64,000 nt of DNA from Opitutia bacterium. GTDB taxonomy: Bacteria; Verrucomicrobiota; Verrucomicrobiia; Opitutales; Opitutaceae. The notes beneath the pieces are model-generated. The model was not told the DNA's origin. It worked only from the letters and a program-made list of their open reading frames with translations, and did not search any database. Each line of letters opens with the position of its first letter. The first letter of the stretch is position 1. The position numbers and the translations under genes are program-made. Location: contig JACRHT010000012.1 of assembly GCA_016217545.1 (NCBI GenBank), forward strand, positions 372,001 through 436,000, in the 5' to 3' direction. Below are positions 29,252-52,588 of the stretch, in pieces.

Positions 29252-29605
29252 ATGCCCCCCAAAGCCAAGTCCGCCAAAGCCACGCCCAAAGCCAAAGCCG
29301 CCGCCAAGCCGGCAAAAGCGAAAGCCTCCAGCCTCGCCGTCGCCGCCGCCGGCTTCCCCGTCAACCAGTCCGTCATCATCCCGGGTGCGGGCAACGGCAA
29401 CATCGGCCTGTATTTCTACAGCGGCACGACGCTCTCGATCAACTACCAGCCCAACGGAAACAGCCAGGTGTTCTTCGGCCAGAACTACATCACGCCCACC
29501 ACGCCGCTGCCGGCGGGCGTGTCGACCTTCCCGGCCCAACCCGGTTTCAACATGACTTGGTCCTCCTCGGGCGGCGGATTCAAATTGGTCTGGGGCGTCA
29601 GCTGA
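29252..29605 (+). CDS. Small protein with histone-H1-like Lys/Ala tail and beta-rich domain
   Basis: 117 residues. Residues 1-27 are almost entirely Lys, Ala, Pro, Thr and Ser (MPPKAKSAKATPKAKAAAKP, then AKAKAS), like the C-terminal tail of eukaryotic H1 or bacterial Hc1 proteins. The rest (about 35-117) is Gly/Asn/aromatic-rich and predicted beta: GNIGLYFYSGTTLSINYQPNG, with the end GGGFKLVWGVS. No known domain recognised. The ATG at 29252 is preferred because the tail begins there. A strong terminator follows. It may bind DNA or polyanions through the tail (inference); it is not a standard nucleoid protein. Confidence 0.65.
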   Translation: MPPKAKSAKATPKAKAAAKPAKAKASSLAVAAAGFPVNQSVIIPGAGNGNIGLYFYSGTTLSINYQPNGNSQVFFGQNYITPTTPLPAGVSTFPAQPGFNMTWSSSGGGFKLVWGVS

Positions 29606-49790: not shown

Positions 49791-51419
49791 GTGTCCCGCT
49801 ACCGTCGCACTCCCTCTTTCCCTCGCGTGAAAAAATCCTCCGCCCACACCGCCACGAAGTCCGCTCCGCCCGCCGCCGCTCCCGCCGGCAACGCCACCGC
49901 GCCGCTCCCGCTCTTCAACTGGCTGCGCTCCCGCGGCGCCGGCGTGCTCCTCCACCCGACCGCGCTGCCCGGCGCCCAAGGCGTCGGCGTGTTCGACGCC
50001 CACGCGCTGCGCTTCCTCGATTTTCTCCAGCAAGCCGGCGTGAAATACTGGCAGCTCTGCCCGCTCGGCCCGACCGGCTACGGCGACTCGCCCTACGCCT
50101 GCTTTTCCGCCTTCGCCGGCAATCCGCACCTCATCGACCTCGCCGCGCTCGTGCCGCACGACCTGCTCGACGAGGCCGACCTCGCGCCGCTGCGCACGTT
50201 GCCGACCGACCGCGTCGATTTCGGCGCGCTGCATGAGAAGAAGCGTCCGCTGCTCGCACGCGCCTATCGTAATTTCATGGAGCGCGAAGTCGCCGCGCCC
50301 TACGGCGAGTTCGAGGCCTTCAAGCACCGCCACGCCTCCTGGCTGATGCCCTACGCTTACTTCACCGCGCTGAAGGACCACTTCAACGGCGCGTCGTGGA
50401 CCGAGTGGCCCGTCGAGCTGCGCGACTACGCCTCCGCGCAAAAATCCGACCTGCGCGCGCTGCTCGAGGAGCCGATCGAGCGCTGCTGCTTCGCCCAATA
50501 CCTCTTCTTCGGTCAATGGCACCTCATCCGCACCGAGGCGCGCGCGCGCGGCATCGAGATCGTCGGCGACCTGCCGATCTTCGTCGCGCTCGACTCCTCC
50601 GACGCGTGGTCGAACCCGGGCCTCTTCGAACTCGATCCGCAAACCAAGCGCCCGATCGCCGTCGCCGGCGTGCCGCCGGATTATTTCTCCGCCGACGGAC
50701 AGCTCTGGGGCAATCCGCTCTACCGCTGGGAAGCGCACCGCGCGGAAAATTACCGCTGGTGGATTGAGCGCATGCGCGCCGCGTTCGAGCTCTACGACAT
50801 CGTGCGCATCGATCACTTCCGCGGCTTCGACACCTACTGGCGCATCCCGCTGCCCGCGACGAACGCGCGCGTCGGCGAGTGGCGCCAGGGCCCCGGCCTC
50901 GAGCTCTTCCGTGCGTTTCACCGCGAATTTCCCGACGCGCGCATCATCGCCGAGGATCTCGGCGACCTCACGCCCAGCGTGCGCGACCTCCTCGCGCAGA
51001 CCGGCCTGCCCGGCATGCTCGTGCTGCAATTCGCCTTCGGCGGCGACGCGACCAACAGCTACCTGCCGCACAACGCGACGCCGAACAGCGTCATCTATCC
51101 CGGCACGCACGACAACGACACCACGCTCGGCTGGTATCGCACCGCAAGCGAGCACGAGCGCGACTACGTGCGCCGCTACTTCCGCGTTTCCGGCCAGGAA
51201 GTCGCGTGGGATTTCCTCCGCGCCGCCTACGCGAGCGCGTCGCGCCTCGCCGTGATTCCACTGCAGGACGTGCTCTCGCTCGAAAGCGCCGCGCGCTTCA
51301 ACACGCCCGGAAAACCTGAGGGCAACTGGCAGTGGCGCTACCGCGCGGCCGATCTCGAAAAACTTTTTGGCGGCACCACGAACTATCTGCGCGACCTCGC
51401 GCAGCTCTACGGACGCTGA
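49791..51419 (+). CDS. malQ: 4-alpha-glucanotransferase (amylomaltase)
   Basis: 542 residues from GTG 49791; GTG 49827 is an alternative that would remove a 12-residue leader. GH77 enzyme that transfers alpha-1,4-glucan chains in maltodextrin/glycogen metabolism. Family features are GVLLHPTALPGAQGVGVF at the barrel start, WQLCPLGPTGYGDSPYACFSAFAGNP (in pieces), nucleophile D in YDIVRIDHFRGF, acid E in RIIAEDLGDL and third D in YPGTHDNDTTLGW. The Ala/Pro/Lys-rich N-terminal 40 residues are non-conserved. It appears to stand alone; no glycogen genes are adjacent. Confidence 0.93.
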   Translation: MSRYRRTPSFPRVKKSSAHTATKSAPPAAAPAGNATAPLPLFNWLRSRGAGVLLHPTALPGAQGVGVFDAHALRFLDFLQQAGVKYWQLCPLGPTGYGDSPYACFSAFAGNPHLIDLAALVPHDLLDEADLAPLRTLPTDRVDFGALHEKKRPLLARAYRNFMEREVAAPYGEFEAFKHRHASWLMPYAYFTALKDHFNGASWTEWPVELRDYASAQKSDLRALLEEPIERCCFAQYLFFGQWHLIRTEARARGIEIVGDLPIFVALDSSDAWSNPGLFELDPQTKRPIAVAGVPPDYFSADGQLWGNPLYRWEAHRAENYRWWIERMRAAFELYDIVRIDHFRGFDTYWRIPLPATNARVGEWRQGPGLELFRAFHREFPDARIIAEDLGDLTPSVRDLLAQTGLPGMLVLQFAFGGDATNSYLPHNATPNSVIYPGTHDNDTTLGWYRTASEHERDYVRRYFRVSGQEVAWDFLRAAYASASRLAVIPLQDVLSLESAARFNTPGKPEGNWQWRYRAADLEKLFGGTTNYLRDLAQLYGR

Positions 51420-51515
51420 TTTTTTCGCGCGGAGAAATTTTCACGCCGCGTCGCACCGCGCGTCACACGGAATATTTTCCGTGCATCTTGCGCGCGCGCT
51501 CGTTAGGAATTTTCC

Positions 51516-51575
51516 ATGGCAAAGAAAAAAGCGGCCAAAAAGGCCACCAAGAAAGCCGGCAAAAAGAAGAAGTAA
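51516..51575 (+). CDS. 19-residue lysine/alanine microprotein
   Basis: Translates to MAKKKAAKKATKKAGKKKK, with eleven Lys in 19 residues, ending TAA. A good ribosome-binding sequence (AGGA at 51505-51508) sits 7 bp before the ATG, and a strong terminator follows 30 bp downstream, so it forms a complete small transcription unit. It resembles histone H1 or bacterial Hc1 tails, and similar tiny Lys-rich proteins are known to me from Verrucomicrobiota. Probably binds DNA or RNA non-specifically. It is below normal gene-finder length limits. Confidence 0.7.
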   Translation: MAKKKAAKKATKKAGKKKK

Positions 51576-51605
51576 CGCCCGTCGTTGCATCTTGCTACCC
51601 CAAGC

Positions 51606-51637
51606 CGCCGGCTCTTCGGAGCCGGCGTTTTGTTTTT
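51606..51637 (+). terminator. Rho-independent terminator (UUCG loop)
   Basis: 9-bp stem CGCCGGCTC / GAGCCGGCG closed by a TTCG tetraloop, followed by TTTTGTTTTTC. It terminates the lysine microprotein unit. Confidence 0.93.
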
Positions 51638-51679
51638 CTCAGAGGGAAAATCGCGGAGCGAGCCGCGCGCGAGACCCAG

Positions 51680-52588
51680 TCACTTGATCTGCTCGGGCCG
51701 GAATTTCCGCCAGTAGCGCGCGAGGCCGCCGACACTCATCGCCGCCGGGTCCGCCTGCTCGTAGGTATCGAGCATCTCGTCGCTCAAGCCCGCCATTTTC
51801 AATTCGGCGCGCACGCGCTGCTCGAACAGCGGCACGATTTTTTCCTCGGGCATGCCGATCTTCAGCTCCTCGGCGATCCACTCCGCCCAGTCGAGCAGAC
51901 GCTCGACCAGCTCGTTGAGGCGCTTCGCCGGATCGTCGATCTCGCCGAAATGAGTGAAGAACACGCGCGCCGGCTGGAGCTTCATGATCCGCTGCAGCGA
52001 ACCGAGCCACTGCTCGATGTTGATGTCGGGCGGCGGACACGGCGGCAGGCACGGCCCGCCGTCGATCACCACGCCCATCACGTCGCCGGAAAACAGCGTC
52101 CGCTCCCGCTCGAGCCACCACGCGTGGTGGTGTTGCGCGTGACCGGGCGTGTCGAGCGCGGTGAAAATCGTGCCGCCCGCCTCGACGGTCTCGTTGTCCT
52201 GCACGACGCGGAGCTTGTCCGCCCGCACCGGGCGCATGTCGCCCCAGAGATAGTTCATCTGGTCGCCGAAGATCTTCGTCGCACTCGCGAGCAGCTTCGC
52301 CGGATCGGCGAGGTGCGGCGCGCCCTTCGGGTGCACGCAGACCGTCGCGCCGTATTCCTCGGCCCACCGCCACGCCGCGCCCGCGTGGTCGAAATGGATG
52401 TGCGTCACGAACACATGCGTGACGTTCTCCGGTCGCAGACCCGCGTGCAGGAGGCCCGCGACGGTGTTGTTGAAGATCGACTCCGGCCCGCAGTCGACGA
52501 GCGCAAGCTTCTCGTCGCCCACGACACCGGTGCCAATGACCTTCGGCCGGCCGAGATGCAGGCCGTCGACGAAACGGATCGCGCTCAC
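51680..52588 (-). CDS. MBL-fold metallohydrolase, coupled to yebC
   Basis: 302 residues from a GTG start that overlaps the YebC stop by 4 bp (GTGA). The metallo-beta-lactamase motif is H63-H65-D67-H68 (VTHIHFDHAGA), with later metal ligands in TPGHAQHHHAW, FSGDVMG and FFTHFGE. It is a glyoxalase-II/lactonase-like hydrolase with an extended C-terminal helical region (about 225-302). The substrate is unknown. Tight coupling to YebC suggests co-expression rather than a shared pathway. A terminator-like hairpin (51606-51627) lies just beyond its stop but faces the other strand. Confidence 0.88.
   Translation of the reverse strand: MSAIRFVDGLHLGRPKVIGTGVVGDEKLALVDCGPESIFNNTVAGLLHAGLRPENVTHVFVTHIHFDHAGAAWRWAEEYGATVCVHPKGAPHLADPAKLLASATKIFGDQMNYLWGDMRPVRADKLRVVQDNETVEAGGTIFTALDTPGHAQHHHAWWLERERTLFSGDVMGVVIDGGPCLPPCPPPDINIEQWLGSLQRIMKLQPARVFFTHFGEIDDPAKRLNELVERLLDWAEWIAEELKIGMPEEKIVPLFEQRVRAELKMAGLSDEMLDTYEQADPAAMSVGGLARYWRKFRPEQIK

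Follow-up and report, generated by a model that had tools for sequence, protein, structure and literature searches.

The closest described counterparts of the peptide reported here are the lysine-rich tails of bacterial H1-like proteins. HC2 and its relatives (PF07382; NF038053 and NF038052) have an acid-free AKKA composition rich in Lys and Ala, and the HC2 profile comprises 194 positions. The KPAA-repeat tails of AlgP and PhaF from Pseudomonas are disordered and rich in Lys, Ala and Pro, and the AlgP tail is attached to an N-terminal domain. KPAA-repeat peptides from AlgP are reported to bind DNA in vitro, and AlgP, an H1-like protein, to associate with polyphosphate granules (PMC9239181). 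In a 64,000-nt stretch of an Opitutaceae genome (contig JACRHT010000012.1; hereafter the window), we find a microgene whose predicted product has a similar composition, with little or nothing beyond the tail. No paper on this microgene was among the matches listed in a search of the open-access literature. Judged by its sequence, this miniature, free-standing form of H1-like AKKA tails, with its unusual stop-codon hairpin, appears to be new.

The micro-ORF, MAKKKAAKKATKKAGKKKK, lies on the forward strand at 51516–51575, with the ATG at 51516, and comprises 19 codons and a TAA stop. Direct reading gives 19 residues, of which 11 are Lys and none is acidic, confirming the 20-codon frame with eleven Lys reported in the preliminary description; orthologues and a synonymous bias further support the frame. 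It is the only ATG-initiated ORF of 10–45 aa with at least 30% Lys on either strand of the window, and 50 first-order Markov windows of equal composition contained none. An intrinsic terminator is located at 51606–51637 (+), evident both from direct reading and from a terminator scan. It consists of a GC-rich stem-loop with the UUCG loop already recognized in the preliminary description (CGCCGGCTC-TTCG-GAGCCGGCG, 51606–51627), followed by a T tract (tail TTTTGTTTTT). Within 51516–51637 there is a second hairpin, absent from that description, which is positioned at 51565–51596 (+) and carries the stop codon in its 5′ arm. Specifically, the inner stem pairs 51572–51577 with 51583–51588 and holds the TAA, while the outer pairs reach into the last Lys codons. 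Scans of the entire window for Rfam families, at the gathering score, and for tRNAs found neither.

The micro-ORF is flanked upstream by malQ on the same strand, which ends at 51419 (PF02446; NCBIfam 4-alpha-glucanotransferase), and downstream by a convergent metallo-beta-lactamase-fold hydrolase and then YebC/TACO1, both identified by Pfam. Among 52 member loci examined from all searches, 30, from genera g1, g28, g38 and g47, have malQ and the micro-ORF in the same order and orientation. The convergent metallo-hydrolase and/or YebC comes next in 29 of these 30 malQ-linked loci, and the next gene is unidentified in one. At the six non-syntenic loci looked at, comprising ten ORFs, the neighbours are genes other than malQ, the metallo-hydrolase and YebC.

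We surveyed the region downstream of malQ in two sets of loci that overlap in species, using no model of the microgene. In the family survey, which covered 90 malQ loci, one per genome, from 95 matching genomes of 100 searched, 900 nt downstream were inspected (at least 600 nt were available in 85 of the 90 loci); a K-rich micro-ORF follows malQ in nine loci and is absent there in 81. In the named public collection, 1000 nt downstream were inspected at the best 80 of 469 malQ relatives (less than 600 nt at four loci), revealing a K-rich micro-ORF at 16 of these best 80 and none there at 64, with no K-rich micro-ORF on the antisense strand of the same 80 loci. Carriers in the named survey include Lacunisphaera, Candidatus Didemnitutus, Oleiharenicola and Opitutus MAGs. 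The peptides in the malQ surveys range from MAKKKAAKKKK (11 aa, L023) to MAKKKAAKKPAKKAAKAGKKKK (22 aa, L211). A covariance model, the first version of which was seeded from three sequences, spans the final codons together with the 3′ structures but not the start; it gave 42 matches with E ≤1e-7 (hereafter strong matches) in 252 family genomes, and 4 of 13 genomes of the window's own genus had no match to it. Weak matches (about E 1e-4 to 1e-2) mostly correspond to different genes whose 3′ ends carry Lys codons ahead of a terminator, and the model tallies of 93/252, 113/252 and 105/384 are thus not gene counts. Reading loci individually, we count at least 62 of the 252 family genomes, in 12 genera, with a stand-alone K-rich micro-ORF; this is a lower bound, with many weak matches unread, and it includes several members with a longer in-frame start upstream. 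An additional upstream in-frame start of this kind is present in, for example, L035, L036, L067, L187, L191 and L193, making the true N-terminus of those members uncertain. Querying plasmids with the intergenic region returned no match, and a search of the window's own genome with a 41-aa relative also returned no match, an empty answer that is uninformative because that search had no positive control.

The preliminary description had named conservation of the frame and of its synonymous-site pattern in relatives as a check on the gene, and a hairpin kept with the frame lost as the outcome that would count against it. A complete ATG ORF is present in 41 of the 42 strong matches, and the last is truncated by the end of its contig, so that the adverse outcome did not occur. 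The 41 ORFs encode 11–41 aa from an ATG-GCN start, a few of them with a short extra upstream in-frame start. Codon changes in 15 pairs of relatives comprise 27 synonymous and 5 non-synonymous changes, against a synonymous fraction of about 0.28 expected in the absence of selection (p 5.5e-11), and the Lys codons of these pairs show 13 silent changes versus one other; the pairs were hand-picked, partly from gapped protein alignments, which favours a synonymous excess, and Lys has two codons only. In particular, two gapped g41 pairs supply 16 of the 27 silent changes, and excluding them leaves 11 versus 3 (p 1.3e-4). The nine ungapped pairs of equal length give 6 synonymous versus 2 non-synonymous changes (p 0.008). 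Together, the synteny, the frame, the synonymous bias and the conserved 5′ and 3′ elements support the presence of a conserved microprotein gene, as judged from comparative sequence analysis.

Upstream of the frame, a GTGC box is positioned at 51481–51484 (+), 31 nt before the ATG. Among the 41 complete strong matches, each of the 31 from g1, g2, g19, g25, g28 and g38 carries GTGC at 30–32 nt upstream of the ATG, and none of the ten from g16 and g41 has it in the 50 nt immediately preceding the ATG. The GTGC columns are invariant in an alignment of 19 sequences, and carriers of the box include members located away from malQ (L045, L046, L049 and L055). The box probably marks the promoter or start-site region. 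A scan of 51380–51720 for a sigma-70-like promoter found none; the complete transcription unit claimed in the preliminary description is therefore borne out at the terminator but not at the 5′ end, although the conserved GTGC box is located there. The AGGA described there as a ribosome-binding sequence is present at 51505–51508 (+), 7 nt before the ATG, and is kept in the closest relative, L002, but is absent from most of the window's group. An SD-like word occurs in 6 of 39 members, four of the six belonging to g16, and among the 35 members outside g16 it is found only in the window's species and L002. AGGA is thus a possible Shine-Dalgarno word and a weak argument for ribosome binding. In g16, g22, g40, g41 and g45, AGGA or GGAG is present in 17 of the 18 leaders inspected, as counted by eye.

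A hairpin of the pattern GAAGUAAC-loop-GUUACUUC includes the stop codon in its 5′ arm, and this arrangement is conserved. The stop is fully paired in 8 of the 9 members from the family survey versus 16 of 90 in-frame malQ stops (Fisher p 3.3e-5), and in 13 of the 16 members from the named survey versus 12 of 80 malQ stops (p 4.7e-7), both member sets having been found without any model and overlapping in species. Three of the 16 depart from this pattern: two of the stop bases are paired in L214 and one in L211, and in L219 the hairpin begins only after the stop, immediately 3′ of it. Among 30 long ORFs of the window, two have a paired stop. By itself, the stop hairpin of the window is modestly stable (−9.3 kcal/mol, z −1.67), and the 81-nt 3′ end containing both hairpins has a z of −4.15. 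Across 39 members, partly selected by the model, the mean z of the stop hairpin is −2.69, with values below −2 in 27; because the hairpin is part of the model by which some of these sequences were chosen, the count of 31/39 paired stops in this set is biased. In an alignment whose 46 rows are all distinct, and which leans towards the model structure because it was fitted to it, 95.7% of cells are paired; changes on both sides occur in 3 of 6 stop-hairpin pairs and in 9 of 9 pairs of the main terminator helix, and for the whole structure all five measures lie above those of all 500 shuffles and all slid versions. In L010 the hairpin lies just 3′ of the stop, and the hairpin is therefore kept there without the stop codon. 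A hairpin over the stop is also present in other Lys-ending genes, such as L105, L107, L190 and L196, which were picked by the hairpin-containing model, and the feature may therefore not be unique to the microgene. The stop hairpin and the adjacent terminator most likely protect the 3′ end of the mRNA, and a regulatory role for the stop hairpin is possible. L049 and L059 have a TAG stop immediately before an in-frame TAA within the hairpin, forming tandem stops.

K-rich peptides also recur outside the conserved arrangement. In g16, g22, g40 and g45, K/A-rich peptides of 15–34 aa have different leaders and their own terminators, as do those of 23–61 aa in g41, and similar stand-alone peptides of 26, 37 and 69 aa occur outside the family (L116, L120 and L125). 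With sequence of such low complexity, recurrent shrinking or growth of AKKA tails and descent of all the K-rich relatives from a single gene are equally possible. In five of the g41 loci (L069, L094, L106, L186 and L187), the leader of the longer K-rich gene contains a palindrome, GGCGCATAGTGCGCC, as well as another inverted repeat, about 50–80 nt before the ATG.

The preliminary description had called the peptide histone-tail-like, and its composition and the longer AKKA relatives fit that reading, but the HC2 profile does not recognize the 41-aa relative at its cutoff. From the MA start, the window peptide and its relatives have the acid-free composition rich in Lys and Ala (and Pro) that characterizes HC2. 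The 19-aa window peptide is too short for a profile scan, and the comparison with HC2 is accordingly one of relatives: the 41-aa relative scores 12.6 bits against PF07382 (cutoff 40, E 0.15) and gives E 0.2 and 0.52 against H1-like models, and two 22-aa relatives have no Pfam or NCBIfam match. Membership in HC2 was rejected on the score of 12.6 versus 40 bits, and the micro-ORF peptides, at 11–61 aa, are far below the cutoff of the 194-position profile. Assignment to the AlgP/PhaF type was likewise rejected; unlike AlgP, the peptides have no N-terminal domain, the window frame starting with MAKKK and encoding 19 aa and the 41 strong matches encoding 11–41 aa. Proteins of g20 and g48 in the same family (L111, L118, L200 and L204) resemble the microgene in having a C-terminal Lys/Ala run that ends in at least four Lys and is followed by a terminator, but differ in being about 200–280 aa long with an additional N-terminal part. 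The echo that the preliminary description heard in the protein at 29252–29605 (+) does not hold as a shared tail. In that protein the Lys/Ala/Pro stretch (MPPKAKSAKATPKAKAAAKPAKAKASS...) is N-terminal and precedes a globular-looking part, and there is no Pfam match at E 0.01; the resemblance is thus one of composition only.

The gene, the frame and the hairpin are conserved and silent changes are in excess, and the most probable explanation, in view of the comparative evidence, is a genuine Opitutaceae microprotein gene that expresses a miniature H1-tail-like polycation binding nucleic acid. The microgene is probably transcribed on its own, with a predicted layout of a GTGC box at the promoter or start site, about 30 nt, the ATG, a frame of 11–22 codons that would be translated, the stop hairpin and the intrinsic terminator. 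Its product would be a disordered polycation, a free-standing miniature of bacterial histone H1-like AKKA tails, that most likely acts by charge, binding nucleic acid (RNA, or DNA of the nucleoid) or a different polyanion and neutralizing or condensing it, while the stop hairpin together with the terminator would protect the 3′ end of the message. What is kept despite the drift in length is mainly the Lys density and the MA...KK ends. We infer a charge-acting polycation from this pattern and from the H1-like composition of the longer relatives; action by charge would in turn leave the length free to drift, over 11–22 residues and up to 61 in another genus.

A serious rival, overlapping this explanation and differing from it in target only, is that the peptide binds ribosomes or RNA, much as the basic tails of ribosomal proteins do, or else polyphosphate, instead of condensing DNA. 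Polycations bind any polyanion, and AlgP is reported to associate with polyphosphate granules (PMC9239181); the neighbours, however, are malQ, the metallo-hydrolase and YebC, none of them linked to ribosomes or polyphosphate, nor are those at the six non-syntenic loci, and we regard this target as possible but doubtful. Another reading makes the transcript mainly a structured small RNA, composed of the GTGC box, the stop hairpin and the terminator, with the peptide as a second or minor product. The RNA elements are indeed widely conserved beside the frame, as seen in the stop hairpin (13/16 and 8/9) and its covariation, the distance from GTGC to ATG is near-constant, and L010 keeps the hairpin with no stop codon inside. 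Yet none of the 42 strong matches has the hairpin without the frame, bar the one cut by its contig end, the frame shows synonymous bias, and g16, g22, g40, g41 and g45 keep a K-rich frame under unrelated leaders. The window has no Rfam match, which also led us to reject a known structured RNA family, and we consider a mainly RNA-based function unlikely.

Gene order weighs most heavily on the proposal that the frame is a leader peptide or attenuator for a downstream gene. A short frame rich in Lys, with hairpins and a terminator behind it, has the look of such an element, but no co-directional downstream gene was identified, the next identified gene being convergent in 29 of the 30 malQ-linked loci, and the proposal, largely refuted in this way, is very improbable. 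That the frame is a chance ORF within the malQ terminator region is hardly credible at all; it is intergenic and precedes a terminator that might likewise act on malQ, but it is conserved, has its own upstream box, and has members away from malQ in other genera, and the idea is refuted by this conservation.

If the H1-tail-like polycation is translated, it would provide a natural test of the minimal sequence needed for histone-tail-like function, and a lysine peptide of 11–22 residues would be, to our knowledge, among the smallest conserved proteins. Frames of this size are far below the usual annotation cutoffs. A more far-reaching reading, which we put forward as speculation and rate as rather improbable, is an undescribed class of near-minimal genes, down to the 11 residues of MAKKKAAKKKK, in which a free-standing histone-tail peptide is combined with a stop codon built into a conserved mRNA hairpin that could couple termination after poly-lysine to mRNA stability, or to feedback of the polycation on its own message. 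One transcript would then yield both a peptide and a regulatory RNA. The stop codon within a conserved hairpin is in any case a concrete and testable oddity of mRNA design.

Two further features were observed. The proteins of L111, L118, L200 and L204 share a similar N-terminal part (LTFDLKADLI.VLDKYQ...GVSKSEII), which may be ribbon-helix-helix-like, and have very long AKKA tails; by sequence they look like tail-bearing regulators. In addition, a hydrophobic antisense ORF of 49 aa at 51441–51590 (−) overlaps the microgene, and may be a simple consequence of the complement of Lys codons, which encodes Phe and Leu.
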